Below, piece after piece: positions 17,355 to 61,594 of a DNA stretch of 64,000 nt. Source of the DNA: Bartonella sp. HY038 (GTDB lineage Bacteria > Pseudomonadota > Alphaproteobacteria > Rhizobiales > Rhizobiaceae). The stretch covers positions 1,922,001-1,986,000 of the forward strand of contig NZ_CP059725.1 in NCBI RefSeq assembly GCF_014117425.1, in the 5' to 3' direction. A program made the position numbers and the translations under genes. The first letter of the stretch is position 1; each line of letters starts with the position of its first letter. The notes beneath the pieces are model-generated. The model ran no database searches and was not told the DNA's origin. It worked only from the letters and a program-made list of their open reading frames with translations.

Positions 17355-17360
17355 GATGCG

Positions 17361-17669: not shown

Positions 17670-17682
17670 TTTTTTCTTCCCG

Positions 17683-18991: not shown

Positions 18992-19003
18992 TATCTTAAA
19001 CTC

Positions 19004-35527: not shown

Positions 35528-35746
35528 TTTTTACACATGACATGATAATTAAAAACCCAAATGAAATAATTGAGAATGTGCATAAGGCGCAATTTTCATC
35601 GCGAAACTTTATAGGAACATGTTGAAGCAGTTTTTTCATCTCAAGTAATTTTTACGTTGGTCAAGATTTTTGTATCAATAGGTTATAATGGTTAATAGCG
35701 AGCACATTTATTTAAAAAATTTAATTAATCAGAGATTAGGCGACAC

Positions 35747-42862: not shown

Positions 42863-42939
42863 GCACCCGTAGCTCAGCTGGATAGAGCGTTGCCCTCCGA
42901 AGGCAAAGGTCACAGATTCGAATTCTGTCGGGTGCGCCA
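42863..42939 (+). tRNA. tRNA-Arg (anticodon CCG), island attachment target
   Basis: A 77-base cloverleaf with encoded CCA. Acceptor GCACCCG pairs with CGGGTGC, and the anticodon loop CTCCGAA gives CCG. Bases 42891-42937 recur exactly at 59595-59641. The tRNA stays intact because the integrated element supplies its 3' part. Confidence 0.97.
42891..42937 (+). repeat. attL: 47-bp direct repeat in tRNA-Arg
   Basis: This segment of the tRNA, from the anticodon stem to the acceptor stem, is identical over 47 bases to 59595-59641. Use of a tRNA 3' half is the usual target of tyrosine integrases. Confidence 0.93.
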
Positions 42940-42999
42940 TTAAAATATAATAAAATCAATATTTTAAGGCATTATTTACTGTATTTTTTTTCGTTCAAT

Positions 43000-43026
43000 T
43001 TTAAATTTGTAGCAGTTTTGTAGCAA
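43000..43026 (+). repeat. Left inner 27-bp direct repeat (putative integrase arm site)
   Basis: Identical to 59466-59492. It contains TTTGTAGCA twice, 11 bases apart, about one helical turn. It lies 62 bases inside attL. Confidence 0.75.
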
Positions 43027-43207
43027 TTGGCGTGAAAATGTGTTTTAAACCAGCGCATTGATCCTTTTGAGCGCAGTTAAATTTGTTATTATTTTCACTT
43101 GTTTTAAATGTACTTGATAGGCTTGAAGAGCGAATCTTTAACGAAGCTTCGCCGACAATTGACTAGCTTTTATCATGGAAGTGGTTTGACCATGAAAAAA
43201 ACGCGCC

Positions 43208-43552
43208 TTACTCCCCTTCATTATCGCCATCATATTTACCAGCTTTATAATTTTTTTCAATTTGCTTAAATGCGCTGGTGGTTAGCGTGTTAACTTCATA
43301 AGCGCATTGCTGGTCTTCCATAAATTCATGGTTGGCAACAATTTCAATATAAGGCTTGGCTTTTTCACTTGCAGGATTTTTATAATAATAAGTGCAGACC
43401 TCTTCTTGGCAAAATTTAACTAAAACATTTTGCTTGTTTAATTTAAAGCTTTTGAGCACTTGTGCAATTGGCTTGCAATCTTGCGCATGTGATGATGTTA
43501 TTAAAAACGTTGATATACTGGCTATAAGCACTGCTGTATAAATCTTTTTCAT
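43208..43552 (-). CDS. Secreted hypothetical protein, island left end
   Basis: A 114-residue protein with a clear signal peptide (1-23, cleaved near SSHAQ). The mature part has four cysteines (in DCKP, FCQEEVC, QQCAYE), which suggests two disulfides. No family is recognised. It is divergent from the next secreted-protein gene, so the two may share regulation. Confidence 0.65.
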   Translation of the reverse strand: MKKIYTAVLIASISTFLITSSHAQDCKPIAQVLKSFKLNKQNVLVKFCQEEVCTYYYKNPASEKAKPYIEIVANHEFMEDQQCAYEVNTLTTSAFKQIEKNYKAGKYDGDNEGE

Positions 43553-43656
43553 TTAAGAGCCCCCATAATTCAGATGTAATTTAATGCGTTTACAAATCAG
43601 CTATTTTCACCGTAACTTAAGCCATAGAAAAAGTCATTTTAATTGGAGGATGTTTA

Positions 43657-44166
43657 ATGGCAAAGTTTAATATATCTTTTAAGATATTGGGCGCATTGTT
43701 TGTTACAGCATTTTTATTGATAAGCCCAGCGCAAGCACAAAAATTTGAAAATTATCCAGCCACTCAAATTTATAAAGGCAAGCAAGCCAAATTGCAGCTC
43801 ACCAAGGATAATGGTGGCTTAACCTTTAAAACAAGAATTACTGAAGCTGCCAAAAAGGGTGTTAATTTTGCTGGACAATATAGCATTGTTGAAATTGGCT
43901 GCGGCTCGTCCTGCCTTATTGCGTATGTGGTGGATTTAAAAAGCGGCAAATTATTTAGCTTTCCTCTTGGTGGGGAGGAAAATTATCAAATGCAATTGCA
44001 ATATAAGCCCAACAGCCGCCTTATCAAAGTGGTGTGGAATGATATCAATGCCGCCCAAAATAAAGCTTGTGTGATTGAATATTTGGAAATGCAAAAAGAT
44101 AAATTTAAAACCATAAACCGCACAAGAATGCCATCTGATGGTTTCTGTGATGCTTATGTAGATTAA
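43657..44166 (+). CDS. Secreted hypothetical protein with conserved core
   Basis: A 169-residue protein after a GGAGG ribosome site, with a signal peptide (1-28, cleaved near AQAQK). The mature part includes GVNFAGQYSIVEIGCGSSCLIAYVVDLKSGKLF, a pattern seen in small periplasmic proteins of many Proteobacteria; the function is unknown. Its stop overlaps the start of the following gene by one base (TAATG), so the two are probably coupled. Confidence 0.7.
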   Translation: MAKFNISFKILGALFVTAFLLISPAQAQKFENYPATQIYKGKQAKLQLTKDNGGLTFKTRITEAAKKGVNFAGQYSIVEIGCGSSCLIAYVVDLKSGKLFSFPLGGEENYQMQLQYKPNSRLIKVVWNDINAAQNKACVIEYLEMQKDKFKTINRTRMPSDGFCDAYVD

Positions 44167-44906
44167 TGAGAGATAAACAAATGATAAAAGTTGACGATAA
44201 TTATATAATAAATTCAATACAGAGATATAAAAATGAGTTATCGCTGAATAGTGATAGAGCGCATTCTTTTGATTACTGTTTTAATTATTTTAAAAGAAAC
44301 TGTAATACCTCCAGATATTCCTTTGCAGATAATATGGAATTAAGTTCCTTACATTTAGGTTTTTACCTAGCAAGTTGGGGAATGTATCGAGGTTCAAGTT
44401 ATTTATTACAAAATAGTCTCTCAATTTATGAAAAAGTTATTGAATATTTTGATGTTTTGAAAAAAAACCATTTAGAGTTAAATCATTTGTCACCATGGGA
44501 TATAGACGTAAGTAGCTATAATGAAGATAGCATAAAATTTTTATTAAATCTTCATAAGAATATAAAAGAGTGCTTAAAAATAAATACAAAAGAACCTTCA
44601 GATATTTTGATTACAAAAATTATGCTAGGTGTGTTTGGAAATGTACCAGCTTATGACGCTTATTTTAAAAAAACTTTTAAATTGATATCTAAAGATCTGA
44701 ATTACGATTGTGCATTTACTTCGTTTAATAGTAAATCATTAAAAGTAATTAAAAAATTTTATGATAAGCATAAACAATCCATAGACACGATAGCTCAAAC
44801 CTATACAACAGTAGATTTTAGTTCAAAGAAAAAAACAGATATAAATTACACAAAAGCAAAAACTATTGATATGTTTGGATTTATGTGTTCGTTTCAAAAT
44901 AAGTGA
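44166..44906 (+). CDS. Hypothetical cytoplasmic protein, island cargo
   Basis: A 246-residue, AT-rich-coded helical protein. The block LHLGFYLASWGMYRGSSYLLQ is strongly protein-like, and from memory similar blocks occur in unassigned bacterial hypotheticals. There is no signal or membrane helix. A later ATG at 44181 is possible. It overlaps the secreted-protein gene by one base. Role unknown; its place in a defence-rich island makes it a candidate for testing. Confidence 0.65.
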   Translation: MRDKQMIKVDDNYIINSIQRYKNELSLNSDRAHSFDYCFNYFKRNCNTSRYSFADNMELSSLHLGFYLASWGMYRGSSYLLQNSLSIYEKVIEYFDVLKKNHLELNHLSPWDIDVSSYNEDSIKFLLNLHKNIKECLKINTKEPSDILITKIMLGVFGNVPAYDAYFKKTFKLISKDLNYDCAFTSFNSKSLKVIKKFYDKHKQSIDTIAQTYTTVDFSSKKKTDINYTKAKTIDMFGFMCSFQNK

Positions 44907-45370
44907 TATTTATTGTTAGACTCAATCTATTTGGGGCGATGATCAAGCAGACGCATGTAGTTCGTGGTTTATTTGATATATTTCAAAATGTTGCTCAACT
45001 GACTATAATTTCGCGTATTACCCCTGTTGGACTTTGTTGCGAGTAGATACTTTTCACTACGAACATCATTAGATTTATTGGAAGCGCATAACTCCTGTAT
45101 AAATTGGATTGTTATTATTTACATAAAAATGCATAAAATTGGAAGATTACGATAGAGCTTTTAAAGCACTGTTAAATTTCGGATTGACTAATGTGTTTTG
45201 TCACTTATAGTAACCTTATAGTTTTGAAAGCTACATTATTTTGCTACAAGCTTTGAGTCCAAATCTCATAAATTCATAAACGCAAATCAAATAATCAAAA
45301 TTTCTGAAAACGAATAAGTAAGCGCTTACAGTGTTTGCCTTCAAGTCGTTTTAATTTAATGAGGTAAAAT
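44907..45370. other. Intergenic stretch inside the island
   Basis: About 460 AT-rich bases. No intact frame, RNA or repeat is supported. The part next to 45371 must contain the promoter for the deoxynucleotidase. Confidence 0.4.
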
Positions 45371-45943
45371 ATGACATCTTCAAAAGATGATAAATGGAAT
45401 GAGCCTTTTAATCCAATGATTGAAGAGGAGTTTTTAAAAAAATATAATATAAAAAAAACAACTAAAAATACTCTATTTATTGATATGGATGGTGTGCTTG
45501 TTGATTTTGATAAAGGTTATGAAAACTATTTTGGCTATAAACCGACTAAAGTTGATGACAATGTCGATTGGGCGTTGGTGAATGGTGTAGAAAGTTATTA
45601 TGCGAATATTCCGCCTATGGAAGATTTTAAGGAATTATGGGAGGGGATAGCACATTATAACCCTATTATTTTGACTGGTGTTCCTAAAGAAGTGCCGTCG
45701 GCTGCTGATGATAAAAGAAAATGGGTTGATAAACATATTGGTAAAAGCCAATTAATGATTACCTGCTTGTCAAAAGATAAAAGCCTTCATATGAAAAATA
45801 AAGGTGATATTTTAATTGATGACTGGACAAAATACCAACATCTTTGGATTGAGCGCGGTGGACGCTGGATCACACATATGAGTGCAGAACAATCACTTGC
45901 TGAATTAGAAATGTCTATTTTAATGGACGATATATTTGTGTAA
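45371..45943 (+). CDS. 5'(3')-deoxyribonucleotidase-like HAD phosphatase
   Basis: A 190-residue HAD-superfamily protein of the NT5C type that removes phosphate from (deoxy)nucleoside monophosphates. Motif I is DMDGVLVDF with nucleophile D38 and acid D40. Motif II is the Thr of ILTGVPKE (T102), and motif III is ILIDDW (D150, D151). An N-terminal extension of about 30 residues precedes the core. A ribosome site (GAGG) lies 8 bases before the ATG. In this island it may serve nucleotide metabolism or phage defence. Confidence 0.82.
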   Translation: MTSSKDDKWNEPFNPMIEEEFLKKYNIKKTTKNTLFIDMDGVLVDFDKGYENYFGYKPTKVDDNVDWALVNGVESYYANIPPMEDFKELWEGIAHYNPIILTGVPKEVPSAADDKRKWVDKHIGKSQLMITCLSKDKSLHMKNKGDILIDDWTKYQHLWIERGGRWITHMSAEQSLAELEMSILMDDIFV

Positions 45944-45967
45944 CAATTATTGTACTCTGTTCAATAG

Positions 45968-45990
45968 GATTGAATAGTAGCTATTCAATC
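45968..45990. terminator. Hairpin between convergent genes
   Basis: A perfect 10-bp inverted repeat (45968-45977 with 45981-45990) with a 3-base loop lies between the nucleotidase stop and the dGTPase remnant stop. It lacks a T run, so it is only a candidate terminator. Confidence 0.5.
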
Positions 45991-45993
45991 AAC

Positions 45994-46401
45994 TTACTGA
46001 TCATAAATTGAGCCAATATCAGGCATAAATAAGCGTTGATATTTTTTAGACGCATAGTAATCTGTTATGCCTGCAATATAATTGCAAACAATACGATGTT
46101 TGATGCCTTTTTCGTTCTCATAGAGTTCAAGATGATATTCACCCATAAATAAAGGATTTTCACAAAAGACATCAAAAAGTTGACGGATTAATTTGCGCAA
46201 CTTCTAAACTATGCGTCAATCGATTACGGTAAAAATCACTTTCACGATGCTTAAAACCTGTCTTTTTCCTTGTAATCTTCTAAAAGCAGAGGAATTTATC
46301 ACTCTTGCGCGGTCAAAATGGGCAACTTCTTATAATAATTGGTCTTTAAAGGAAGGAAGCTCTCTTCCTTCATAAGATTTGCGCATTTTCCACAGTTTCA
46401 T
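45994..46401 (-). pseudogene. dGTP triphosphohydrolase remnant with large internal deletion
   Basis: From 46401 the frames give a dGTPase N-terminus: MKLWKMRKSYEGRELP, then FDRARVINSSAFRRLQGK and RESDFYRNRLTHSLEVAQI, the region with the first metal-binding His of the HD domain. The sequence then jumps to the C-terminal region LFDVFCENP and HRIVCNYIAGITDYYASKKYQRLF. About 250 central residues and several frames are missing. The family hydrolyses dGTP and can limit phage DNA synthesis. Not functional here. Confidence 0.8.
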
Positions 46402-46558
46402 AGCAATTCCTTTGATTTGATAGAGGGTACTTTAATGAATTGTATTCATTATATAATCATAAATAAAACATGATGACAAATGCTTTTTAAATGTATTTTT
46501 ATGAGTTTTTATCATATATAAATGATGATTAATTGAAGCCATTATTTAAGGGTTAGTG

Positions 46559-48580
46559 ATGCAAACAGAATTAATTAATGCTCTAAACATTGTGTTAAAG
46601 CAATTTCCAGAATATTGGGAAGCTGACAAGTTGCACCGTACAATGGTGATTGAAGATATTCAAAATAAAAAGCCTGAATTGATAAAAGCATTCATTCAAA
46701 ATGAAAAAATAAAATCTCTTTACGGTATTGATATTGGAGGTGTTTTAGTTTTTGATTTTAATGGCTTAATTTCTATCCTTAAATATAAAGAATATTGGGC
46801 AGATAGCTTTACAAAATATCGCAATAAAATTGGCTTAACGACAGATGGGCGTTACCTTGAATATAATTCCGATGTTGTATTAGATTTTCCTTATAAAGAT
46901 TGTGTGCTTGAAGGTGGAATGAGCACAGAAGAGCAAGGTAAGAATGAAATTTATTATAATGAAATTATCGCTAAGGATGAAATTGACCGCCTTTTTGGAC
47001 CCAAAGTTTTGACCAATGCGAAGCGCTATAACAAAGATGGTGTTGAAGAAAGTATCACTAATTTTAATGATGAGGATAACTTAATTATTAAAGGCAATAA
47101 CTTAATTGCGCTACATTCATTGAAACAACGCTATGCTGGCAAGGTGAAGCTCATTTACATCGATCCACCTTATAATACAGGCAATGACGGCTTTAAATAT
47201 AATGACCGCTTTAGCCGTTCTACTTGGCTAACATTTATGAAAAATCGGCTTGAAGTGGCAAGAGAATTGTTAAGCGATGATGGTGTCATATTTGTGCAAT
47301 GTGATGACAATCAGCAGGCATACTTAGTTATTTTGATGGATAGTATTTTTGGGCAAACGAATAAAATTAATGTAATTAGTGTTAAAATGTCAGAGGCAAC
47401 GGGAGTTAAAATGTCCCACGCTGACAAAAGATTTCCAAAATTAAAAGAATACATTTTATTTTATAAGAAAGAAAACTTAACATTTTTAAATCCTGTAAAA
47501 ATACCTATCGACGCTTGGAACAATGAATATAAAGAAATTATTTTGAATGTTAACAAAGATGATTTGGAAACAATAAAAGAAATAATGGAAAAAAATAAAT
47601 CAACTATAGATGAAGTAAATCTTGTAAATGAGATTGTCTCTTTAGCAAATATAAAAAGTCTTTCCAGCTATTTTAATGAAAATGATATCAGTAAAGACCA
47701 ACAAGATAAATTTAAATGGGAGAATTCTTGGCGCATAATTCAAGCAGTCGGAGCAGGAAGTATTAAAGAGCGTGCCATCAATGCAAGAACAAATAATGAA
47801 ATATCTGCTTTACTTACATCAACTGGTAAACTAAATATTTTTAAAAATAATTTTGATGAAACTTCAAAAGATCCAAGAATACGAATTATATTTGCAGATA
47901 AATATCTTGAATATAATCCAGGCGATTTTTGGACTGACATTAAAACTGCAGGCGGTGTTGGAAAAGAAGGTGGAGTTCTTTTTCCAAAAGGTAAAAAACC
48001 TGAACAATTACTGCAACGTATAATTAATAGCGTGACACTATCAAATGACATTATTCTCGATTTCCATCTTGGAAGCGGCACCACTGCTGCTGTCGCTCAT
48101 AAAATGGGACGGAGATATATCGGCGTTGAACAAATGGATTATATAGCTGATATCACAGTACCACGTTTGCAAAAAGTTATTGAAGGTGAACAAGGCGGTA
48201 TTTCTAAGGATGTTAGCTGGCAAGGTGGTGGTAGTTTTGTTTATGCGGAGTTGAAAAAGCTTAATTATGAATTTGCAGATGTCATAGATGCGGCAACAAC
48301 TAGTGATGATTTAAAAATCATTTATGAAGAGATGCGGCAAAAAGCGCATCTTAACTATCAAGTAGAATTAGATGGCATTTTAAACAAAGTATATGAAGTG
48401 GATGGTGTTGACCATTTTCTCTCGTTTAATGAATTGGATTTGCAAGAACAGAAGAAGCTATTGATTGAGCTTTTAGATAAAAACCAGCTTTATGTAAACG
48501 CTTCAGAGATGGAAGATAAGCAATTAAATTTTTCTATGGAAGAAAAAGCATTTACAGCAAGTTTCTATAAAAAGGATTAA
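46559..48580 (+). CDS. Type III restriction-modification methyltransferase (Mod), N6-adenine type
   Basis: A 673-residue DNA methyltransferase that recognises the site and protects host DNA. The order is that of the beta class: catalytic DPPY at 202-205 (motif IV) precedes the S-adenosylmethionine motif DFHLGSG at 501-507 (motif I). The long region between, about 230-480, is the target-recognition part. The ATG is preferred to a GTG one codon earlier. It ends 4 bases before res, and the two proteins form the restriction complex. AT-rich codons suggest transfer. Confidence 0.92.
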   Translation: MQTELINALNIVLKQFPEYWEADKLHRTMVIEDIQNKKPELIKAFIQNEKIKSLYGIDIGGVLVFDFNGLISILKYKEYWADSFTKYRNKIGLTTDGRYLEYNSDVVLDFPYKDCVLEGGMSTEEQGKNEIYYNEIIAKDEIDRLFGPKVLTNAKRYNKDGVEESITNFNDEDNLIIKGNNLIALHSLKQRYAGKVKLIYIDPPYNTGNDGFKYNDRFSRSTWLTFMKNRLEVARELLSDDGVIFVQCDDNQQAYLVILMDSIFGQTNKINVISVKMSEATGVKMSHADKRFPKLKEYILFYKKENLTFLNPVKIPIDAWNNEYKEIILNVNKDDLETIKEIMEKNKSTIDEVNLVNEIVSLANIKSLSSYFNENDISKDQQDKFKWENSWRIIQAVGAGSIKERAINARTNNEISALLTSTGKLNIFKNNFDETSKDPRIRIIFADKYLEYNPGDFWTDIKTAGGVGKEGGVLFPKGKKPEQLLQRIINSVTLSNDIILDFHLGSGTTAAVAHKMGRRYIGVEQMDYIADITVPRLQKVIEGEQGGISKDVSWQGGGSFVYAELKKLNYEFADVIDAATTSDDLKIIYEEMRQKAHLNYQVELDGILNKVYEVDGVDHFLSFNELDLQEQKKLLIELLDKNQLYVNASEMEDKQLNFSMEEKAFTASFYKKD

Positions 48581-48584
48581 GTTA

Positions 48585-51230
48585 ATGGCAAAGGCTGTAA
48601 AAAAACAGAAGCTTGACCTGCTTTTTAATCAATGGGAAGATGATAAACAATTAAATTTGTTTATGAAAACCATTAACGTATCTGATTATATAAAAGATAA
48701 TTTGAAAGATGACTTGCGTCCATATCAAGAAAAAGCGTTGCGAAATTTGCAATATTCGCAAAATGAGCAAGGTGCTGATTTCCGCTATAATCATCTATTG
48801 TTTAACATGGCGACGGGCTCAGGTAAGACAATGGTGATGGCTGCTGTTATCCTTTATATGTTTAAAGAATTTGGATATCAAAATTTCATTTTCTTTGTAC
48901 ATACAGATGCTATTATTCAAAAAACGAAAGAAAACCTATTAAACCCCACATCTTCAAAATATCTTTTTGCTGATACTATAGAGATCAATGGTCGTCAAAT
49001 AGAGATTAAAGAAGTTGATACATTTCCTGCTCAGCCAGATAAGCATACGATTTATATTAAATTTTCGACTATTCATAAGATTCATGATGAATTTAGAAAC
49101 CGCCGTGAAAACTGCGTGAGTGCAGAAGATTTAAAGGAATTCCCACTCGTTTTATTAGGCGATGAAGCGCATCACTTCAATGCTGCCACTAAAAAAAGTG
49201 ATGACAAAGAGGATGATGAGAAGACTTGGGAAAATACCGTTGAGGCGATTCTTCGTTTGCAGCCTAAAAATCGTTTATTTGAATTTACTGCAACAATCGA
49301 TTTAGAAAACAAAAATTTATATGACAAATATAAAAACAAGATTGTTTATCAATATGATCTCAAGCAATTCATGTCGGATGGTTACTCTAAAAAAGTAATG
49401 CTGTTAGAAGCGGATCAAAATGATGACGACAAAATGCTTGATGCTGTTTTGTTAAGTCAATATCGTAAATTAGTGGCAATGGATAACGGTATTAAAAATT
49501 TCAAACCTGTTATTTTATTTAAATCAAATCTCATCGCTGTTTCCAAAGCAAAACAAGAGGATTTTATTCAGATGATAGAAGCGCTATCGCCTAATAAAAT
49601 TGAACAGCATTTAACGGATAAACAATCGCAAATAAGCATTACAAGTATATGGAATAAAGTTATTGAGCGTTATGCGAAAGGTAATTTGCTTAATATTGTT
49701 CAAGGCATTCAAAAAGATTTTGATGAAATGAATTTATTGAATGTCAACAAAACTGATTTGATGGAAGAGCGACCTGTTTTATTAAACACTTTAGAAGAAA
49801 TGGATAATCCTATTCGTGCAGTCTTTGCCGTTGCAAAAGTCAATGAAGGCTGGGATGTATTAAACTTATATGACATTGTTCGCATTAAAGAAAAAGCCTC
49901 GAGCTCTAAAACTGGAGCAGAAGCCGAAGCACAGTTAATTGGACGCGGCGCAAGATATTATCCATTTATTTACAATGGTGAAAAAAGTTATATCAGACGT
50001 TTTGATAATAGCGTCAGTGATTTAAGTGTATTAGAGCAGCTACATTATCACACAATTAATGATCCAAGTTATATTACGAATTTACATGCTTCCTTAGAAA
50101 ACGCCAATGTTATTTCTCAAGTTGATGGTTCTGGAAAACGAGTAAATGCCAAATTAAAAGAAGAATTTAAAGAGTCAAAAATCTATCGAGAAGGCAAACT
50201 TTTCTTTAATAAGGTTGAAGAAATAAAAGATAATGAAAGAACATGGGAATCCTATTCATTAGATAAAATATTTGAAGTGACGTTTAAAAATCTTTCGGAA
50301 GTGAGTTTAGATAAATTATCCAATCATGAAGATGTTGAAGTATATTCTTTGACATTAGAAGTTGATAAAAGATATTTTCAAAAGGCAATTCAATCAAATG
50401 ATTTTTATCAATTTGATAACCTAAAAAAATATTTTCCTACTCTCGAAAGTATTGAAGAGTTTATTGTAAGTGATGAATATCTAAAACAACTGACTATCAT
50501 TGTGCAGTTGCCTTCAAAAGTAAAATTAGAAAATTTATCTGCTAAAGATAAGTTGAAAATTTTAAATGAGGTCATGGATAGAATTGCAAACAACATAAAA
50601 AGAAATAATAAAAAATATATAGGTACTTATAATTTTGTTAGTAAGCCTCTTAAAGAAGTTATCACTGATTATAGCATGATCATTGATGAAACTTCGTTAA
50701 GCGATGTAAGCCAAATTATAACTGCTGAATCTTCTATTGGAAAAACGTGGTATGTTTATGATCAGGCAATATTAAACCAATTGGAACATAGATTGATTAA
50801 ACTTCTTGAGGGTTTTATGTCAAAACTTAAGGAAGATTATAGCGAAATTTATGTTATCAGAAATGATGAACGATCAACGCGTTTTAAATTAACCGAGTTT
50901 AATGCCGTTAGGGGCTTTATGCCTGATTTTATTATGATTATGACGAAGAAAGAAAGCAACGAATATTATCAAGTATTTTTAGAGCCGAAAGGTGGCAACA
51001 GATTATTAGAAGATCAATGGAAAGAAGAAATGCTTGAAACTATCAATAGTGATAGGATTATCATTATTGGTGAAAATGATAATGTCAGATTGGTAGGTAT
51101 TAAATTTTATAATGATGATGCAAAAGGCAGAAAAGACGAGTTTGTAGAAGACTTTGAACGAAGACTTTATGATGGGAAAAAACTACTCAATACTGCACAG
51201 AGAGAAACTCAGCCAAACTTATTAGATTAA
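48585..51230 (+). CDS. Type III restriction enzyme, helicase-nuclease subunit (Res)
   Basis: An 881-residue SF2 ATPase and endonuclease that works with Mod to cut between inversely oriented unmodified sites. Walker A is ATGSGKT at 76-82, DEAH is at 193-196, and the C-terminal helicase lobe holds EGWDVLNLYDIVRI and AQLIGRGARYYPF. The PD-(D/E)xK nuclease is recognisable from D781 (MPDF) to E800-x-K802 (LEPKGG). All key residues are present, so the system looks active. Confidence 0.93.
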   Translation: MAKAVKKQKLDLLFNQWEDDKQLNLFMKTINVSDYIKDNLKDDLRPYQEKALRNLQYSQNEQGADFRYNHLLFNMATGSGKTMVMAAVILYMFKEFGYQNFIFFVHTDAIIQKTKENLLNPTSSKYLFADTIEINGRQIEIKEVDTFPAQPDKHTIYIKFSTIHKIHDEFRNRRENCVSAEDLKEFPLVLLGDEAHHFNAATKKSDDKEDDEKTWENTVEAILRLQPKNRLFEFTATIDLENKNLYDKYKNKIVYQYDLKQFMSDGYSKKVMLLEADQNDDDKMLDAVLLSQYRKLVAMDNGIKNFKPVILFKSNLIAVSKAKQEDFIQMIEALSPNKIEQHLTDKQSQISITSIWNKVIERYAKGNLLNIVQGIQKDFDEMNLLNVNKTDLMEERPVLLNTLEEMDNPIRAVFAVAKVNEGWDVLNLYDIVRIKEKASSSKTGAEAEAQLIGRGARYYPFIYNGEKSYIRRFDNSVSDLSVLEQLHYHTINDPSYITNLHASLENANVISQVDGSGKRVNAKLKEEFKESKIYREGKLFFNKVEEIKDNERTWESYSLDKIFEVTFKNLSEVSLDKLSNHEDVEVYSLTLEVDKRYFQKAIQSNDFYQFDNLKKYFPTLESIEEFIVSDEYLKQLTIIVQLPSKVKLENLSAKDKLKILNEVMDRIANNIKRNNKKYIGTYNFVSKPLKEVITDYSMIIDETSLSDVSQIITAESSIGKTWYVYDQAILNQLEHRLIKLLEGFMSKLKEDYSEIYVIRNDERSTRFKLTEFNAVRGFMPDFIMIMTKKESNEYYQVFLEPKGGNRLLEDQWKEEMLETINSDRIIIIGENDNVRLVGIKFYNDDAKGRKDEFVEDFERRLYDGKKLLNTAQRETQPNLLD

Positions 51231-51264
51231 ATATGATGTAATAAAGAACTTATGGAAAAACCTC

Positions 51265-52090
51265 ATGCGTAAATCGAATGGATTTAATAAAATGCAAGAT
51301 TAATTTAGAGGTTGTCTTATAGGTGGTGCAATTGGTGATGCTTTAGGTGCACCTGTTGAGTTTGTGGGTTATGATGAAATCATCAATAAATTTGGAAAAA
51401 AAATACCGAATATTCACATGCTTATGGTGGTTTGGTTAAAATTACTAATGATACTCAAATGACACTTTTTATTGTCAAGGGTATCATTTGTGTTGTATTT
51501 TGTGATTAAGAAAAAAGCATTGATACATTATTGTGTCAATTAGCAGCTTCTTATTTGCGTTGATTTGACATGCAAGGGATAAACAATACTGCTTTAAATG
51601 TTGATTATTCATATATGTTAGAAGGTGTTTTGTTTAATCAAGTATATAGCAAGAAATGCTTCTGCTACCGTAAATATGCATTGAAAAATGGTTTACATTT
51701 AGTTGCTGCAATTAATGAGACTTGTAATATACAGAAACTTATACCAACAAAGAAACGAATGAGAAAATTACGCAAGGTTTGCTGCTCGCTTTTGAATATC
51801 TTCTTACCTATGAAGGAATTAAGCTTATAGGAAAAGGCTGGAAAGCAGAAGAGGCATTAGCTATTTCCCTATATTGTGCACTTACTGCAATTAAATTGAA
51901 GATGGCATTATAAAGTTATTAATCAAAGCGGAGTTTCATATCCAGAAGGTTCAATAACAGGCAAGATTTTAGGGCACATTTACGGCTATCAGCCTATCAA
52001 TGATTGTTTGCTCGATGACTTTGAACTCAAAAAGGTCATAATTGAACTATCCGATTATCTTTTTACAGTTACAACAAGAGGCATATCGTT
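51265..52090 (+). pseudogene. ADP-ribosylglycohydrolase-family remnant
   Basis: A start followed by an in-frame TAA at 51301, then [20 protein letters not shown], the N-terminal hallmark of ADP-ribosylglycohydrolases. In other frames follow [18 protein letters not shown] (metal-binding TDDT-like element), GLLLAFEYLLTYEGIKLIGKGWKAEEALAISLYCAL and the C-terminal GVSYPEGSITGKILGHIYGY, where the usual second metal motif is altered. Multiple frameshifts show decay. The family removes ADP-ribose from proteins or nucleic acids. Confidence 0.85.
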
Positions 52091-52273
52091 TGAAAAAAGG
52101 TTCGTTATTATCCCTTTCGATTTAAAAAACATTCAAATCAGAATTAGCTTTTAAGTTTTATATTTGGTGTGCAAAAACGGTCATTTATGCCCATGCGGGC
52201 AATAAGGGTATTTAAATAATAAAACACATGCGCTATATTATGGTTACCCTTATTGCGCATGGAGATTAAAACT

Positions 52274-52840
52274 ATGGCTATTTTTGCATATTTGCGCGTT
52301 TCTACTGAAGAACAAACAACCGATAATCAGTTAAAAGAAATAAAAGATAGATTATCTGTCTCACCCGACTATATTTTCTCTGAGCATATTAGCGGTAGCG
52401 TACCGGTTAATAAAAGACGCATGTTTTTAGAGATGATTGGTAAAATGCGAGCAGAGGATGTTTTGGTTGTTACCAAGCTAGATCGGCTTGGGCGTGATAT
52501 GATTGATGTTGTAACAACTATTCGTAAATTAAGCGATCAGGGGATTGCACTTAAATGCCTTCAATTAGGTGATGTAGACCCAAATACAAGCATAGGTAAG
52601 CTAACCTTGGGTATTCTATCCATGGTTGCCGACTTTGAGCGTGATTTAATTATCGAGCGTACCAAGTCAGGATTAGCAAGAGCCAAGGCACAAGGCAAGA
52701 AACTAGGGCGCCCAAAAGCCTTAACTGATAAGATGATTAAAAAAATTCAAAGCGATGCTGCAAAGAAAATGAATATATCGCAAATAGCTCGTGAAAATGG
52801 ACTATCGAGACGTACGGTTAATAGAGCTTTGGAAAACTAA
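52274..52840 (+). CDS. Serine recombinase (resolvase/invertase family)
   Basis: A 188-residue small serine recombinase from an ATG after GGAGA. The N-terminal catalytic domain has YLRVSTEEQ with nucleophile S10 and KLDRLGRD at 68-75. The E-helix SMVADFERDLIIERTKSGLARAKAQG leads to the C-terminal HTH (NISQIARENGLSRRTVNRAL). It may invert or resolve DNA locally. No inverted site pair was found beside it. Confidence 0.9.
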   Translation: MAIFAYLRVSTEEQTTDNQLKEIKDRLSVSPDYIFSEHISGSVPVNKRRMFLEMIGKMRAEDVLVVTKLDRLGRDMIDVVTTIRKLSDQGIALKCLQLGDVDPNTSIGKLTLGILSMVADFERDLIIERTKSGLARAKAQGKKLGRPKALTDKMIKKIQSDAAKKMNISQIARENGLSRRTVNRALEN

Positions 52841-53076
52841 TTTGGTGAAATCATAATTGACGCATATAAAAGATAATAATTCATTTTAGATATGAACTTT
52901 TATTCAAATATTTTTCCTGATCCTAAATTATTTTAAACCATTAAGACCAAAATAACTAAGTCGTTTTTAAATTAATAACATTAAAATACTTATTTTAATT
53001 TTGCATAAACATGTAGTCTGATAAAAAGCCTCTATTAGAATTTAAGGAATTTTGTTATATTCTATGATGAGGAAAA

Positions 53077-54372
53077 TTAAATAAATAAAAAATTTTTAAT
53101 ATTTTGAGGATTTTCAAGTTCAAAAGGGACAACTCTTATTTTAGCTGAACCAGCTTGAATATTAATTTGAAAATCGAGTAATGGTTTGTCAAATTTTTCT
53201 TTCATAAAAGGATAAATCAAAATAACTTCACTTGTATGTTTTAAATAAAAATAACTATAGGCAAACATTTGCTGAATATCACTATCTTTCAGTCCAAAAC
53301 GATTTTGAATATCATTTTGATTTAAAAGTTTCCATTTTGTATCTAAAACAACTTTTTTCTTTGTTTCTTTATTTTCAATATGAATATCAGGGCGTAACCG
53401 AAAAATTGGCTTGCCGTCATATTTGCATATATGTTGGCTAGAAAATTGTGTTTTTACATCCCAAGCTTTGAGTTCACGGCGCAAGTGATAGGCAACATAA
53501 TATTCAAATAGCTTTTCCATAGGGAATAATAAGCTCATACCATGCCAATTACCTTGTGTGGCGACAGGGATATATTTCCCAAGTATCAACTCTGTCCATG
53601 GTTTAATATTATCGTAAAGTGTTAATAAGCGGTTTGATTGCCATTTTTTAAAATCTTGTTGGATAGCGTCACTTTTTGGTATTTCATGTGTCATTAATTG
53701 AAGTTCATGCGCCATTTTCCAATTGCTTGCATCGTTTGTCTTTTTACACACGATTTCTAGGGCAGTTTTGATAAGCCGATTTTCTGCGCGATTTAGTTCA
53801 TAGATATCATGTTCAATTGGGAATATATGCTTTTGTGTTGGCGATTGTCGCATATGTTTTACATAACGCAATTGTCCGCGTAAAAATTTCTGATCCTCTT
53901 GCACGCGGTTATAATCAAAACGTAAGCCTTTTTGTACTAAGGTTTTAAAAGCTTTTAGAAATTGCGTAATAATCCATTCGTGCAACGGGTGCCTAAAATT
54001 CTTTAAATTTGCACTTCCTGCTTCTCTATAAGGTAAATGTAAAGAGACCTTGAGCATATTCTGAAGGAGGTTTCGCTCTTTGTTAATAATCTCTTGTTTG
54101 TCTTCAATTGATGTTATCTCAATATGTTTAGGCAATATTTCGATTATAACGCCACATGGTGTTTCAATAATTCCGACATATTGATCTAGCTTGATCTTTT
54201 TTCGTCCAGCCAATTCAAATAATCGCGTACCATCTGCTTTAAAAGATCCTAATAGTTTACATAAATGATTAAACGCACTTTCAGAAATATAAGCATGCTC
54301 TAAGCTGGACTCAGGGCATCCCTCGTAAGCAATGCTTATAAAAGCATATTCTCGTACTGTGAAAATGGGCAT
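53077..54372 (-). CDS. mcrC: McrC-type nuclease subunit of a McrBC restriction system
   Basis: A 431-residue protein from the ATG that follows AGAGGA; an in-frame TTG overlapping the mcrB end is less likely. The C-terminal PD-(D/E)xK nuclease carries RLRPDIHIENKETKKKVVLDTKWK (D...D-x-K), and the N-terminal part is the McrC domain that stimulates the McrB GTPase. Together with McrB it cleaves DNA with modified cytosines. It lies 11 bases after mcrB. Confidence 0.88.
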   Translation of the reverse strand: MPIFTVREYAFISIAYEGCPESSLEHAYISESAFNHLCKLLGSFKADGTRLFELAGRKKIKLDQYVGIIETPCGVIIEILPKHIEITSIEDKQEIINKERNLLQNMLKVSLHLPYREAGSANLKNFRHPLHEWIITQFLKAFKTLVQKGLRFDYNRVQEDQKFLRGQLRYVKHMRQSPTQKHIFPIEHDIYELNRAENRLIKTALEIVCKKTNDASNWKMAHELQLMTHEIPKSDAIQQDFKKWQSNRLLTLYDNIKPWTELILGKYIPVATQGNWHGMSLLFPMEKLFEYYVAYHLRRELKAWDVKTQFSSQHICKYDGKPIFRLRPDIHIENKETKKKVVLDTKWKLLNQNDIQNRFGLKDSDIQQMFAYSYFYLKHTSEVILIYPFMKEKFDKPLLDFQINIQAGSAKIRVVPFELENPQNIKNFLFI

Positions 54373-54383
54373 AATATCCTCTA

Positions 54384-56705
54384 TCAACTATTAAGGATTT
54401 TAGAAAATGCTTCAATGGATTGTAATGCCCTATCGTCTATCTCCCAAATAGTTTGTTCTTCAATAAAGCTTCCGTTTTCAATATCAATATTTGAAAATAA
54501 TTGAGCATGTTCAATGTCTTTTTGTTTTAGCATGCCATTAGCATTTAAAACCATGTTGATCTTTGACCAATCATCGAAAAAATATTCTTGAAGTTGTGGA
54601 ATGATTTTATGTTTGAATATGAGAGCTAAGTCTTCAACTGATGGTGTTGTTTTTAGGGACAAGAAATTAGCATGACCAATACAATGATCGCGGTCTAATA
54701 GAACTTCAATACGCTTATTCATGATGTCTAAAAGATCACCAATATTCAAATTACCAATTTTAACGTCTTTTAATAGCTCTGGCTTTGGAGGCATTTCGAT
54801 AAAAGTAAAACGACGACGTAAAGCAATATCCAAACCAGTCAAAGAGCGATCAGATAAATTCATTGTACCAATAAGATAAACATTCTTAGGCACAAAAAAT
54901 TCTTGCTTAGAATATGGCAGCGTTACTGATAGCTCTTCTTCCGATCCTTGGCGCTTTGTATCCTCAATAAGCGTTATCAATTCCCCAAAAATACGCGAGA
55001 TATTGCCACGATTGATTTCATCAATGATTAAAACGTAGTTTTGCTTTTTACTAGAATGAGCGTCGAGATATTCACTTAAAAATGGGATTAATCTTGCCAA
55101 AATGGAATTATAGCCATTGATTAAATATGGCTCTAACAATATATTTTTACCCAATTTATCAATGACTTGCTTTTCAGAAAAATCATTTGCGGTGATTTTA
55201 TTTTCTCTATATGCGTTTAATAATATATTTATTAAATCGCGTGATAGATGGATTATATTGCCATTAGGTTTTTCTATTTCAAGCAACTCTTTGGTTATCT
55301 TATTTAAAGTGTAATCACCAAATTCGGTTGCCACTTGGAAAAGCATTAAACCATCTTGAATGTTTAAGTCGCAAATTTCCTTAAAAATGCCTGACTTAAT
55401 GTTATATGTTAATTGCCCAAGCGCATTTGTCTCGGCACGTATGCCTTCGACAAAATCTTCATAACTAAAACTTTGATGAAAGGTGACAAATTTGATTAAA
55501 CCTTGCTCTTTATATTGGTCAAAACGATGTTTTAAAGTTTCACGATTTTCATCGTTTAGTGCATCCAATGTTACATTTTCAATAATGGACAAAGCATGAT
55601 TGATCGTGTGATAAGTTTTACCTGTGCCAGCCGCGCCATATAAAATACGGTTTAAAGGTTGGTTTAGTTTACTTTTATCTGTGTTTTTGTTTTTCAAAGA
55701 AACATCAGGGGATTGTATGATTTCTAACTTACCTTCATACCAATCACAAAAAATTTCTAACTCTTCAAGGCTGTTTATACTTAATAAGTACGCTTCTTTG
55801 CCTTCTGCTAAAGTTTTTGCGCGTGAATTTAAATTACTATTTCTTGTTTCTGTAGCAGCATAATGTCTTTTAATTGTTAAATTTAATACTACAGGTGGAA
55901 AGGTGTCACAATATATTGTTACTTTATTCTGGTTGGAATTTAAAGCTAACTCTTTTCCATTATTTGTATTATAAACTTTTATATACTGAGTTCCATCTCT
56001 AGTTCCTGGATATCTTTTATCTAAATATTCTATTGCTTCTTCTACGGAGCAAATTTCACTCACCTCCTTTTCATATATATCCCATATGAAAATATTTATA
56101 TCGAACATGTCTATCGCATTATTTTTAATTTCATCTGCAAAAGCGTCTCGGACTTTTTCAACTAAGTAAATGTTTTTTTCAAACCAGTTTTCTTGATTTA
56201 TATCTTTTGGAAATTCAATAATTTGCTTTTCAATTAAAAAATTAACAAGTTTAGTTAGTTTTTCCTCATGCACGACGCTTGAAACATCTAATGTACATGA
56301 AGCACATGCACGATTAAATAACAAAGGTGCATTGCTTTTTTTTATTTCGTTTAATAATGATTTACCATGTTGCTGAAGTGCATTATAATTATCAAGATTT
56401 GGATTTAATATTAGATTTTGTACAATAGTTATAAATTTAGTATCGTTAATTAAATATTCAAAGGCATCATTGGTGATATTAGATTGACCATTCGTGCTTA
56501 CGCCATTTCTATCATCTTTCAATAATTCACTTAAAAAATCTTTATCATTTTCAACGGTTAAATTATATCTATTTTGTAATTTTTCTTTATATTCTTTCAC
56601 TCTTTCATAAGTGTGGCTATAGTCACTTTTCCACTTAATTGTAGGTGCAGCGGCACGTTTTTTCGTATATTTTGCAAATAATTTATGTAGAATGTCTATA
56701 TTCAT
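54384..56705 (-). CDS. mcrB: McrB-type AAA+ GTPase with an unrecognised N-terminal domain
   Basis: A 773-residue motor subunit of a McrBC-like type IV restriction system. Walker A is GAAGTGKT at 357-364, FHQSFSYEDFVEG at 410-421 follows, Walker B is IIDEINRG at 560-567, and the McrB signature GTMNLSDRS is at 613-621 (usually MNTADRS). The first 350 residues should determine which DNA is bound. They do not resemble the E. coli N-terminal domain to my eye, so the modified base recognised is unknown. The start lacks a good ribosome site. Confidence 0.88.
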   Translation of the reverse strand: MNIDILHKLFAKYTKKRAAAPTIKWKSDYSHTYERVKEYKEKLQNRYNLTVENDKDFLSELLKDDRNGVSTNGQSNITNDAFEYLINDTKFITIVQNLILNPNLDNYNALQQHGKSLLNEIKKSNAPLLFNRACASCTLDVSSVVHEEKLTKLVNFLIEKQIIEFPKDINQENWFEKNIYLVEKVRDAFADEIKNNAIDMFDINIFIWDIYEKEVSEICSVEEAIEYLDKRYPGTRDGTQYIKVYNTNNGKELALNSNQNKVTIYCDTFPPVVLNLTIKRHYAATETRNSNLNSRAKTLAEGKEAYLLSINSLEELEIFCDWYEGKLEIIQSPDVSLKNKNTDKSKLNQPLNRILYGAAGTGKTYHTINHALSIIENVTLDALNDENRETLKHRFDQYKEQGLIKFVTFHQSFSYEDFVEGIRAETNALGQLTYNIKSGIFKEICDLNIQDGLMLFQVATEFGDYTLNKITKELLEIEKPNGNIIHLSRDLINILLNAYRENKITANDFSEKQVIDKLGKNILLEPYLINGYNSILARLIPFLSEYLDAHSSKKQNYVLIIDEINRGNISRIFGELITLIEDTKRQGSEEELSVTLPYSKQEFFVPKNVYLIGTMNLSDRSLTGLDIALRRRFTFIEMPPKPELLKDVKIGNLNIGDLLDIMNKRIEVLLDRDHCIGHANFLSLKTTPSVEDLALIFKHKIIPQLQEYFFDDWSKINMVLNANGMLKQKDIEHAQLFSNIDIENGSFIEEQTIWEIDDRALQSIEAFSKILNS

Positions 56706-57037
56706 GATTTTATTTAAGCCTAAATTTAAAAATATGTTTGTTTTATAGCATATTTTTTGCGTGAAGAGAGTTTTATCTATTTTACACGCACTAAATTTTG
56801 GAATGATTCTTACTGTTAACGTAAAGTAATATAAGTAAATAATTTTATTGGTTGATTAGCATAGAAATTGAGTGATCGCAGGTGCGTCGTTTAAAATGTG
56901 TTATAAAATACAATGTTTAAATTTTTAAGTTTCCACTTAGTAAGGTTAAGCGAATTCTAATATTAATGGTCCACTTGAATTAAGCATTTGCTAGGTAATA
57001 TCTATTCATTATAGTATTCAAAAATGGAAGATTCAAT
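56706..57037. other. Intergenic stretch between mcrB and the HUH gene
   Basis: About 330 AT-rich bases. It should contain the mcrBC promoter. No gene, clear promoter or terminator is identifiable. Confidence 0.4.
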
Positions 57038-57772
57038 TTAATGATAAAAATCTAAGTTCCCATTGCTGTATCGCGGTAAAAATTCTTGATCTATTTTACA
57101 AATTAGTTGCTTCGCATTTTGTGGTATGAATTTACTTGCATAGGTAAGCAGATAAGGGACAGTATTAAGCCCTAATCCATAATCATAGACCTTTTGAATA
57201 TCAACACTATCAAATGAAAAATGCTTTTGGTTCTTTGAGTTTTTAAAAAATGCATTATTACAATTTTTAAATTCCAAATGCTTATTTTCAGGTATGACCA
57301 TTAAGGCATGTAAATGTATATTGTTGTATTCATTTTTAAATGTACCCCATCGTGTTCCTTCAGCATCTAAAAAACCATATGTAATAGGTCTATCTTTATG
57401 AGGCTTAAGGGTCATGAAGTTGCGGTCATTTGTAAATTTCCTTGTAAATCTATTATAATAATCACGGAACTCGTAAACGAGCAATGCTGACAAGTCAGCA
57501 TTGGAGCTAGTTATCGGTGAATTTAATTGACTTAATTTAGAATTTTTAAATAAAAGATTATTATATGAATATGTTATTGTAATAAAATAACTATTAAGTA
57601 ATATATATTCTAAATTTGACTCTAAATTATAATTATAATTAATTTCATTAATGATATTCTTCGAATATCCATCTATTCTTTTTTTATTTTTATAATAATT
57701 ATTGTTAAATTTAAATTCATTTAATTCTGTAATAAATTCATTTTTATAAGTTTCATTAAAATTAAAATTCAT
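57038..57772 (-). CDS. Putative HUH-endonuclease replication initiator-like protein
   Basis: A 244-residue, very Asn/Tyr-rich protein starting after GAGGT. Three elements occur in the order of rolling-circle Rep proteins. A motif I-like strand FITITYSY is at 63-70. The metal-binding HUH motif HLHAL has H153 and H155. A motif III-like YxxK follows (YASKF, Y211 and K214, with Y207 just before). This suggests a nicking enzyme that starts single-strand replication or transfer of the island. It lies on the same strand as the integrase, with two hairpins directly upstream. No database check was possible. Confidence 0.62.
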   Translation of the reverse strand: MNFNFNETYKNEFITELNEFKFNNNYYKNKKRIDGYSKNIINEINYNYNLESNLEYILLNSYFITITYSYNNLLFKNSKLSQLNSPITSSNADLSALLVYEFRDYYNRFTRKFTNDRNFMTLKPHKDRPITYGFLDAEGTRWGTFKNEYNNIHLHALMVIPENKHLEFKNCNNAFFKNSKNQKHFSFDSVDIQKVYDYGLGLNTVPYLLTYASKFIPQNAKQLICKIDQEFLPRYSNGNLDFYH

Positions 57773-57805
57773 ATTTACCTCAAATTTTAGACACTATTAA
57801 ACATC

Positions 57806-57865
57806 CACCGATAGAAAAACCTATCGGTGTTAATGGCTTCAAAATATGCTGATAGAGTTTTGAAG
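57806..57865. other. Two hairpins upstream of the HUH gene, candidate nick site or operator
   Basis: A perfect 9-bp inverted repeat (57806-57814 with 57821-57829, 6-base loop) and a second 8-bp repeat (57837-57844 with 57858-57865) lie 34-93 bases before the HUH gene start. Rep proteins commonly bind or nick such structures. The first could alternatively terminate the integrase transcript. Confidence 0.45.
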
Positions 57866-57978
57866 GGATAAGCCTCAACAAAATGCGATCGCACTATACT
57901 ACTTTATACTATTTATAATAATTGAAATTCTGGTGATTAGCCAAATAGCTTCAAGCTTAATATTAACTAACAAAAATG

Positions 57979-59073
57979 CTAATCGATACGGAATGAATAT
58001 GCATCCGCTTGCTTAAGATATTCATTGGCGATAGCCACGCTAGGATTAATATAACGATTAACAGATCGTACATCACGATGTCCCGTAATTTTTTGAATTA
58101 CATGTGGAGGCGTATTGGCATTCGCAAGAGATGTAATTCTTTCATGCCTTAAATCATGAATCCTATAATTAGGGATGTCAGCTTGTTTTGTAGCACGAGC
58201 AAACATGCGTGTTATTGCATCGCCAGTTATTGGAAAAATTCTATCGTCTATTGCTGATGCTTTTAAATCATTAATTATTTTAACTGCAACCGAGCTTAAT
58301 GGAATAACTTTATTTATAACCTGATTGGGTTTTCTAGAGTTTTTAACATCACGTATAAGAACTTGAACGGTATTATCAGCGTTTACCTTTACATCGCTAA
58401 AATTAAGGCTTGTTAATTCACCTCTGCGTATTCCTGTCTCAAGCAGGAAGTTCACCACATAAGTTAACCACTTTGATTTTGATTTTTTGCAGGCTGCGAT
58501 TAGCTTTTCTCTTTCCTCAGAAGATAAAATTCTATCCCTTGGCTCAGATGGTGCTGGACGATCAATAAATTCACTATTGAAGGGATTATCTTTTATACGC
58601 AGACGGCGCATTGAATATCTAAATACACCTTTAAGCAAGGTAAGCTCACGCAAAACAGTATCGAAGGTAACGGCTTTCTTTCGAGAGGATATAAACTTAT
58701 TAATATCCATATCGGTTATATTGGATGTAATGAGGCTACAGAACCACTTTTCACGTTTTAAAAAGCTATTTAACCTACTCATATCAGAAATAACAGAATG
58801 TTCTTTTCTTCTAATAGAATGTAGGTCGTCTCTAAAGCGTTTAATTGTATCACGAAATCGTTCAGTGGAATTTGGTTTGGCAACAGGATTTGTATTTTCA
58901 TAAGATTCATGTTGACATCTATCTCTGTAAGCCTTGGCTTCCTTTAATGTATTAAATGTCTTAGCAGGATAGCGGTTGCCGTTTTGTCTAATTTGTACCC
59001 TATATGTATCAGATCCATTTATATTTTGAATAACAGTAATATTCTTCATATCAGCTTTTTTATTATAATTCAT
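57979..59073 (-). CDS. int: Tyrosine recombinase integrase
   Basis: A 364-residue phage-type integrase. An N-terminal arm-binding domain (about 10-60, TYRVQIRQNGNRYPAKTFNTLKEA) is followed by a core-binding domain and the catalytic domain. Residues R216 (TGIRRGEL), H306 and R309 (HDLRH), H332 (GHRD) and Y341 complete the active site. AAAGGA lies directly before the ATG. It is 19 bases after the Xis-like gene and would act at the 47-bp attL/attR sites. Confidence 0.94.
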   Translation of the reverse strand: MNYNKKADMKNITVIQNINGSDTYRVQIRQNGNRYPAKTFNTLKEAKAYRDRCQHESYENTNPVAKPNSTERFRDTIKRFRDDLHSIRRKEHSVISDMSRLNSFLKREKWFCSLITSNITDMDINKFISSRKKAVTFDTVLRELTLLKGVFRYSMRRLRIKDNPFNSEFIDRPAPSEPRDRILSSEEREKLIAACKKSKSKWLTYVVNFLLETGIRRGELTSLNFSDVKVNADNTVQVLIRDVKNSRKPNQVINKVIPLSSVAVKIINDLKASAIDDRIFPITGDAITRMFARATKQADIPNYRIHDLRHERITSLANANTPPHVIQKITGHRDVRSVNRYINPSVAIANEYLKQADAYSFRID

Positions 59074-59092
59074 TTCCTTTCATCTCTTTTTG

Positions 59093-59275
59093 TTAAATTT
59101 CAACTTCGTTTTGCTCAACCCATTCACTTATACGTTGATAAGAAAATCTTATACTTTTTCCTATTTTGCTAAAAATTGGTGCGTCCCCATTTGTAATCAT
59201 TCTTCTAAATGTAGAGACACCAATATTTAAAAATTTTGCAGTCTCCGTAATGGTAAGCAATTTATCTTCAAGCAT
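59093..59275 (-). CDS. AlpA/excisionase-like small HTH protein
   Basis: A 60-residue MerR-type winged helix protein (LLTITETAKFLNIGVSTFRRMITNG, then KIGKSIRFSYQRISEWVEQ). Such proteins help integrases excise or activate integrase expression. It is the first gene of the minus-strand recombination unit, behind a near-consensus promoter. Confidence 0.88.
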   Translation of the reverse strand: MLEDKLLTITETAKFLNIGVSTFRRMITNGDAPIFSKIGKSIRFSYQRISEWVEQNEVEI

Positions 59276-59465
59276 ATATCCATTAAACTCCCTTTCTTTA
59301 GGTAAAGATTAAAACAATACATTATTATAGCACAATTATATATTGTTGTAAACATTAAAATTGATTTTTTTTAGATTTAACTTATTGATTTAGATCGTTA
59401 AATCGATCATGAGTATTTTTAGTATATTGATGTTTAGCTATTAAATAAAACGCCTTAAAAATAGC
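59276..59465. other. Leader and spacer at the island right end
   Basis: AT-rich DNA between the Xis-like gene and the inner repeat. It contains the promoter listed separately and no gene. Confidence 0.5.
59324..59352 (-). promoter_or_regulatory. Near-consensus sigma-70 promoter of xis-int
   Basis: Read on the minus strand, TTTACA (59352-59347) is followed after exactly 17 bases by TATAAT (59329-59324). Transcription would start about 40 bases before the Xis-like gene. It is the best promoter match in the window. Confidence 0.8.
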
Positions 59466-59492
59466 TTTAAATTTGTAGCAGTTTTGTAGCAA
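59466..59492 (+). repeat. Right inner 27-bp direct repeat (putative integrase arm site)
   Basis: Identical to 43000-43026, same orientation, 103 bases inside attR. It contains the same pair of TTTGTAGCA boxes spaced 11 bases apart. Confidence 0.75.
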
Positions 59493-59594
59493 AAATATAG
59501 CGAAATTTGATTAAAATTGGCAAATTCTTATCGTTGTGATTTTCTAATGTTGCAATTATATCAATGAGTTAAGGTGATATGCAATGATACTTTC

Positions 59595-59641
59595 TGCCCT
59601 CCGAAGGCAAAGGTCACAGATTCGAATTCTGTCGGGTGCGC
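59595..59641 (+). repeat. attR: 47-bp copy of the tRNA-Arg 3' part
   Basis: A perfect repeat of 42891-42937. It is not a tRNA gene, since the 5' acceptor arm and D-arm are missing. It marks the right end of the island. Confidence 0.93.
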
Positions 59642-60983: not shown

Positions 60984-61279
60984 TGCAATAACACCTTATT
61001 AAAATGAGAAGTCGGATTAATCTATGCTAAAATTCATAGCCTCTTATATAAAAATTATATACAACATGTTTATATTTGGCAATATTATTGTTTATTCTTA
61101 ATGAGTTAACGAGATATAGCAAAGGTTCTATGAGGTAGTGTAAATATTTTTTAAAAAAAATTGGCAAGATGTGTAATGTAGGCCTACAGCCGAAACATTA
61201 CTCCTGTTATTCGCATGAAATGCTCAACAGTTTTCTTGCTCTACGAGGTTTAATTGCTGCCGCAATAAAGGAGATTTTA

Positions 61280-61594
61280 ATGACACGACCACGTAGTTGT
61301 CATATCAAGGTTTGGTGTACGGAAGAAGAGAAGAAAAATATTGAAAATAATGCTCAGCTTGCATGCATGTCTCTATCTATGTATTTACGAAGCACAGGTT
61401 TGTTGGAACAGATCAGGGCTCCCATGGATTATCATGCAATTAAACCACTCGTTTCATTACATGGCGATCTAGGACAGGTAGCAGGGCTATTAAAGCTATG
61501 GCTGGTCACCAATGGCGGAAAAGGTTCATCCCCAAGCGATATTACAGAATATGATGACAGAGTTTCGTGTTTTGCAAAGATCAATTTTCGATAA
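61280..61594 (+). CDS. TraJ/MobC-like relaxosome protein, C-terminus probably frameshifted
   Basis: About 104 residues from an ATG after AAAGGAG. SCHIKVWCTEEEKKNIENNAQLACMSLSMYLRSTGL is the ribbon-helix-helix-like core of TraJ/MobC proteins, which bind oriT next to a relaxase. The last 18 residues look out of frame: another frame gives a helical end (TEFRVLQRSIFDKIADL) ending at about 61608, as expected for this family. An upstream start at 61169 lacks a ribosome site. No relaxase is nearby, so mobilisation is probably lost. Confidence 0.65.
   Translation: MTRPRSCHIKVWCTEEEKKNIENNAQLACMSLSMYLRSTGLLEQIRAPMDYHAIKPLVSLHGDLGQVAGLLKLWLVTNGGKGSSPSDITEYDDRVSCFAKINFR

Follow-up and report, generated by a model that had tools for sequence, protein, structure and literature searches.

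A defence-carrying island with an integrase and an HUH Rep-like gene at tRNA-Arg(CCG) in Bartonella sp. HY038

In the available part of its description, the Pseudomonas island I55 is excised by its own tyrosine integrase, is carried by jumbo phage and protects through a restriction-modification (R-M) gene, and the same partial account places alpA together with an inovirus Gp2-like gene in many, not all, islands of this kind (PMC12595487). Here, we describe an AT-rich island of 16.7 kb at a tRNA-Arg(CCG) gene of Bartonella sp. HY038, lying in a window of 64,000 nucleotides (positions 1,922,001 to 1,986,000 of contig NZ_CP059725.1; coordinates below are those of the window) from a genome of 3.60 Mb in 4 contigs. 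As far as that account goes, islands of the I23/I44/I55 type share with it a tyrosine integrase, an AlpA protein, a phage-replication-type gene (inovirus Gp2-like in theirs), flanking direct repeats, defence cargo, a lack of recognised transfer genes and a small stable RNA as target. However, the I55-type target is tmRNA and that of the present island is tRNA-Arg(CCG), and for this reason we do not file the island under the I55-type family. In addition, its Rep-like protein has no Pfam match to inovirus Gp2, its host belongs to another class, and neither RadC nor YqaJ was matched among the open reading frames (ORFs) scanned, which were ten for Pfam and eight for PHROGs, the small ORFs lying outside these scans.

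Streptococcal integrative and mobilizable elements (IMEs), as partly documented in PMC5704250, are also similar in that they combine an integrase with a rolling-circle-initiator-type protein and accrete in tandem at one site; unlike the case for these IMEs, no coupling protein was recognised among the scanned ORFs of the Bartonella island, the phylum is another one, and a relaxase role for its initiator is putative. The defence islands and integrase hotspots of Escherichia coli and Pseudomonas, likened here by the general description in the accessible text of their reports (PMC10121019, PMC9122126, PMC12629846), likewise hold clustered defence systems in mobile or site-specific islands of other hosts. 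The HY038 island is thus of the tRNA/tmRNA-island type already known, with integrase, AlpA, Rep-like gene and defence cargo. It is ordinary in kind, and its new details are a rare Rep family, the geometry of its arm sites and the array in which it stands.

The target gene, tRNA-Arg(CCG), was located by ARAGORN at 42863-42939 on the plus strand, and its 3' part forms the 47-bp attL core (42891-42937, plus strand), which recurs as the attR core at 59595-59641 (plus strand) with 47 of 47 nucleotides identical, so that the perfect tRNA-derived direct repeat reported in the initial annotation is exact. These are the only two occurrences of the core in the window on either strand with up to 10 mismatches allowed. 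A search of the HY038 genome with 401 bp spanning the tRNA gave no additional copy, only two tRNA-like stretches of 75-76% identity (40 of 67 candidates scored). The GC content is 0.313 in the island, 0.412 in the left flank and 0.356 at the start of the block to its right. We consider it likely that a single integrative element with defence cargo occupies 42938-59641, and the annotation was right in describing an att-bounded element with recombination genes at one end.

Those recombination genes are a tyrosine integrase at 57979-59073 on the minus strand (Pfam Phage_integrase, E 1.3e-22; phrog_1, E 5.3e-52), separated from attR by 521 nt, and an AlpA/excisionase (Xis)-type helix-turn-helix (HTH) protein at 59093-59275 on the minus strand, a probable excisionase (Pfam HTH_17, E 1.2e-11; NCBIfam excise domain, E 6.6e-10). 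Inside each core lies a 27-bp repeat on the plus strand, at 43000-43026, where it contains two copies of the 9-mer TTTGTAGCA 11 bp apart, and, in identical form, at 59466-59492. Among the 18 of 30 integrase loci from other genomes that were scanned for tRNA genes, tRNA-Arg(CCG) was found in 3 (G040, G020 and G533), tRNA-Val in 2 and none within the examined stretch in 13. A direct repeat of period 11 begins 65-68 nt past tRNA-Arg(CCG) in all three of these relatives; in HY038 the offset at attL is 66 nt, and attR carries the same repeat. Taken singly, the five regions give a repeat of this kind in 1.1-5.5% of 1000 shuffles each; the period was chosen after its sighting in the HY038 island, and a scan of periods 8-15 returned, besides period 11, one period-9 repeat, in G533. 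That three genomes with related integrases share such a period-11 repeat, at nearly the same spacing from the tRNA, makes it probable that the 27-bp inner repeats serve the integrase as arm sites. The integrase gene directly follows the tRNA in the three relatives and lies at the far end of the HY038 island. At E-values up to 0.001, the integrase search matched 113 of 199 genomes of the family, mostly weakly; below 1e-45 it matched 3 of 394 genomes including HY038, and the other two integrases adjoin tRNA-Arg(CCG).

The initial annotation listed recombination genes and cargo, both of which are present, and overlooked a replication gene at 57038-57772 (minus strand), 206 nt from the integrase gene. 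Its product is an HUH-endonuclease Rep-like protein and, judging from its motifs and a possible HUH fold, a probable rolling-circle initiator; together with the AlpA/Xis-type protein it overturns the statement that the island holds no phage genes. Motif 1, the HUH motif and the catalytic-tyrosine motif occur in this order in all six close members of the Rep family, and HxH and a second tyrosine with ASK are invariant in the set of eight. Homologues are rare (7 found), and the closest, from Bartonella sp. HY761, is full length and 97% identical; this strain is recorded in the database as coming from bat faeces, and HY038 and HY328 were cultured from bat faeces and are placed near B. tamiae in the accessible part of their description (PMC9769573). 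One homologue is possibly encoded on the same contig as a related integrase. The protein has in common with microvirus replication initiators and Pfam REP_ORF2-G2P the HUH motif, a YxxxYxxK motif and viral Foldseek matches. However, its Pfam score for that family (E 0.031) is below the cut-off, profile comparison gave no support, and no capsid gene was recognised in the island. Pfam matched none of the eight family members to the inovirus Gp2-type family. A hairpin with a 9-bp stem and a 6-nt loop at 57806-57829 (minus strand), 33 nt upstream of rep, is a candidate origin or terminator; perfect stems of 9 bp or longer occur at four positions of the island, this one included, and 12 of 200 shuffles of the region fold at least as well. 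Since an HUH-type Rep is encoded, rolling-circle replication is probable for the excised element.

The defence cargo consists of two restriction systems, each with both subunits present and near full length. A type III methyltransferase, Mod (46556-48580, plus strand; PADLOC MTase_III, E 1.7e-245, and Pfam), is followed by the restriction subunit Res (48585-51230, plus strand; PADLOC REase_III, E 1.9e-248, model positions 15-866 of 873), and the PADLOC models cover residues 127-672 of Mod and 21-867 of Res. McrC (53077-54387, minus strand; Pfam McrBC, E 1.2e-95, model positions 1-318 of 318) and McrB, the AAA GTPase-type subunit (54384-56705, minus strand; Pfam AAA_5, E 1.4e-10; NCBIfam McrB, E 6.7e-34, below its cut-off), form the second system; PADLOC left McrC unmatched and gave McrB just weak type II matches, and both identities, as originally proposed, are borne out by Pfam and NCBIfam. 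Among 190 plasmid records matching Res at E up to 1e-100, the best reach 61.9% identity (an uncultured bacterium; Acinetobacter indicus), and of 291 matching McrB a single one has at least 80% coverage, that of Acinetobacter sp. NCu2D-2, with 56% identity over 97% of the length. The type III R-M and McrBC systems would defend against phage.

These features are likely to belong to the following mechanism. The integrase would insert a circular form into the chromosome by recombining the 3' part of tRNA-Arg(CCG) with a matching 47-bp attP core, with the 27-bp repeats flanking attP as its arm sites, and the AlpA-type protein would serve as the excisionase that lets the integrase reverse the insertion. 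The HUH Rep-like protein would then nick the circle and start rolling-circle replication, so that the excised form could be kept or multiplied, while the type III R-M system and McrBC, the latter through restriction of modified DNA, would form a payload guarding both host and element from phage. Because no canonical transfer gene was recognised, movement is probably borne by a helper, either through phage transduction or through conjugation in trans.

The tRNA itself was compared with that of one other species of the genus (G001), in which the region from fumC to the tRNA is 93% identical to that of HY038 up to 42943. In a stretch of 19.9 kb the core occurs there once, with no integrase match and no second core, and a complete-looking type I R-M system (HsdM, HsdS, HsdR; L045:13245-19193) directly follows the tRNA. 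The congener thus carries a different restriction system at tRNA-Arg(CCG), without the island. The search for an empty site that had been proposed found the tRNA and core intact and free of the island, followed by the type I genes and not by the sequence to the right of 59641.

That sequence had been taken as native flank and is instead a second foreign block with a plasmid-like TraJ, Gabija and a broken integrase, which starts at 59642, occupies the window to its end at 64000 and extends beyond it to window coordinate about 70136. To the right of 59641 the block encodes, in this order, an O-like HTH protein for replication initiation, a NikA/TraJ-like mobilisation protein (61169-61594) in plasmid-derived DNA adjoining the island, with 67-69% DNA identity to traJ of Bartonella krasnovii, B. 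harrusi and B. kosoyi plasmids, and GajB and GajA (Gabija by PADLOC); beyond Gabija lie a repressor-like HTH protein, an AlpA-like protein and an integrase with an early-ending open frame. Directly behind this broken integrase, G000:C1:1992137-1992695 (L007:11638-12196) duplicates window 42985-43546 with 94% identity. The copy takes in the arm-site region together with the first small gene, which lacks an open frame of at least 80 aa there, and is followed by the gene of an IS1595-like transposase, with inverted repeats. No copy of the core marks the outer end of the block. The island is therefore the tRNA-proximal part of a tandem array made up of two or more foreign blocks. As the second block ends at a 94% copy of the island's own left end, elements entered the tRNA one after another, with erosion of the older end. 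Because the right flank is foreign, a search for the tRNA followed by that flank tests an earlier state of the array, not the pristine chromosome. The only age-like signal is the identity of the island's left end to this relic, 27 kb away. It carries no clock and no closely related strain is available for comparison, which leaves the earlier description of the element as datable unsupported.

Within this block, GajB and GajA (L007 4412-6493 and 6487-8730) stand between direct repeats of about 530 nt that are 81-95% alike and spaced about 5.6 kb apart; the repeat-flanked region is L007:3204-9373, from window 61703 to past the window end, and GajA contains a 156-nt tandem duplication (L007 8038-8349). 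Farther out, VgrG-like genes with type VI secretion or phage-baseplate Pfam domains are split over two ORFs (L007:17191-19454), and VgrG-related DNA is found at three places in G001 with 84-87% identity. The Gabija part was not found in that congener, in which the insertion-sequence-like and VgrG-like parts match scattered places.

Several other readings of the island deserve weight. Two decayed cargo genes, the broken integrase and eroded end of the adjoining block, and the lack of a known excised form would suit a relic that integrated once and is now immobile, its integrase and Rep being leftovers and its restriction genes alone under selection. However, the integrase, AlpA and Rep frames are all full length, the cores and the 27-bp repeats have stayed identical, and an intact Rep with 97% identity exists in HY761, so we regard a dead relic as unlikely. 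The HUH gene might also encode a transposase, from an insertion element of the IS91-like or another HUH type that by chance landed beside the integrase, and two tyrosines three residues apart do occur in IS91-type transposases too. Its single copy in the HY038 genome, the rarity of its homologues, the failure of Pfam scans to match any transposase family and the contig that one homologue may share with a related integrase make this reading highly improbable.

The remaining alternatives concern how an excised circle would travel. A phage satellite, whose multiplied circle a helper phage packages, would fit the layout of integrase, AlpA, Rep-like gene and defence genes that the islands carried by jumbo phage display in the accessible description (PMC12595487); no packaging or capsid-interference gene was recognised in the Pfam and PHROGs scans, which left the small ORFs aside, and no helper phage is known, so that this idea is possible but doubtful. 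Rolling-circle-initiator-like relaxases are reported in many streptococcal IMEs in the part of PMC5704250 available, and by analogy with the proposal made for these elements the HUH protein could be mainly a non-canonical relaxase for transfer through a resident conjugation system. The TraJ-like mobilisation gene of Bartonella-plasmid type next to the island is in keeping with this. No canonical relaxase was found among the island ORFs scanned with Pfam, PHROGs and NCBIfam, and the Rep may serve as one. However, these scans recognised neither a coupling protein nor another transfer gene, no origin of transfer was identified and the IMEs compared come from Firmicutes, which together make a mobilizable element of this kind improbable. 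Between carriage by jumbo phage and a mobilizable element with the initiator as relaxase, neither is preferred. A bolder proposal, that a Rhizobiales family combines a tRNA-Arg(CCG)-specific integrase with an undescribed HUH initiator serving as both replication protein and relaxase, and thereby spreads restriction systems as single-stranded DNA among Bartonella relatives without phage or canonical mobilisation genes, seems to us quite unlikely. An integrative element that would excise, replicate by rolling circle and move with a helper stays the preferred reading.

The rest of the cargo is varied. As originally listed, a nucleotidase and a serine recombinase accompany the type III genes, and Pfam, PADLOC or PHROGs agree on all three: the former is an NT5C-like 5'(3')-deoxyribonucleotidase (45371-45943, plus strand; Pfam NT5C, E 8e-8; phrog_2643, E 1.3e-32), and the latter a member of the invertase/resolvase family (52253-52840, plus strand; Pfam Resolvase, E 4.3e-36; phrog_125, DNA invertase). 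The decayed nucleotide and ADP-ribose hydrolases were recovered piecewise. A dGTPase persists as three open pieces (45994-46329, minus strand) matched separately by NCBIfam dGTPase models, with an anti-phage dGTPase model best for two and an ordinary one for the third; an ADP-ribosylglycohydrolase (51304-51913, plus strand) persists as open pieces 51304-51462 and 51728-51913, with Pfam ADP_ribosyl_GH at E 2e-9 and at E 0.018, the second below the cut-off. At the left end are ORFs for proteins of 114 aa (43208-43552, minus strand; no family at or above the cut-off), 169 aa (43657-44166, plus strand) and 246 aa (44166-44906, plus strand; of unknown function), none with a convincing family in Pfam, PHROGs or NCBIfam scans, nor the latter two in PADLOC; the 'secreted proteins' of the initial annotation correspond to signal-peptide-like starts in the first two, judged by eye alone. 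Elsewhere in the window, 12001-20000 shows a strong and steady AT skew of 0.17 to 0.34 over 8 kb, unlike the remaining sequence, and at 34001-36000 the GC content drops to 0.29 amid DNA of 0.36-0.44, possibly another small foreign insert.

Overall, the layout of integrase, AlpA, Rep-like protein and defence genes known from Pseudomonas islands is also present in a Bartonella relative, and the rare Rep family associated with it is likely to be its replication gene. The geometry of the ends, with repeats of 11-bp period 65-68 nt past tRNA-Arg(CCG), can be used to search for related islands in Rhizobiales. If the Rep protein works, the persistence after excision of islands that lack transfer genes would become testable.
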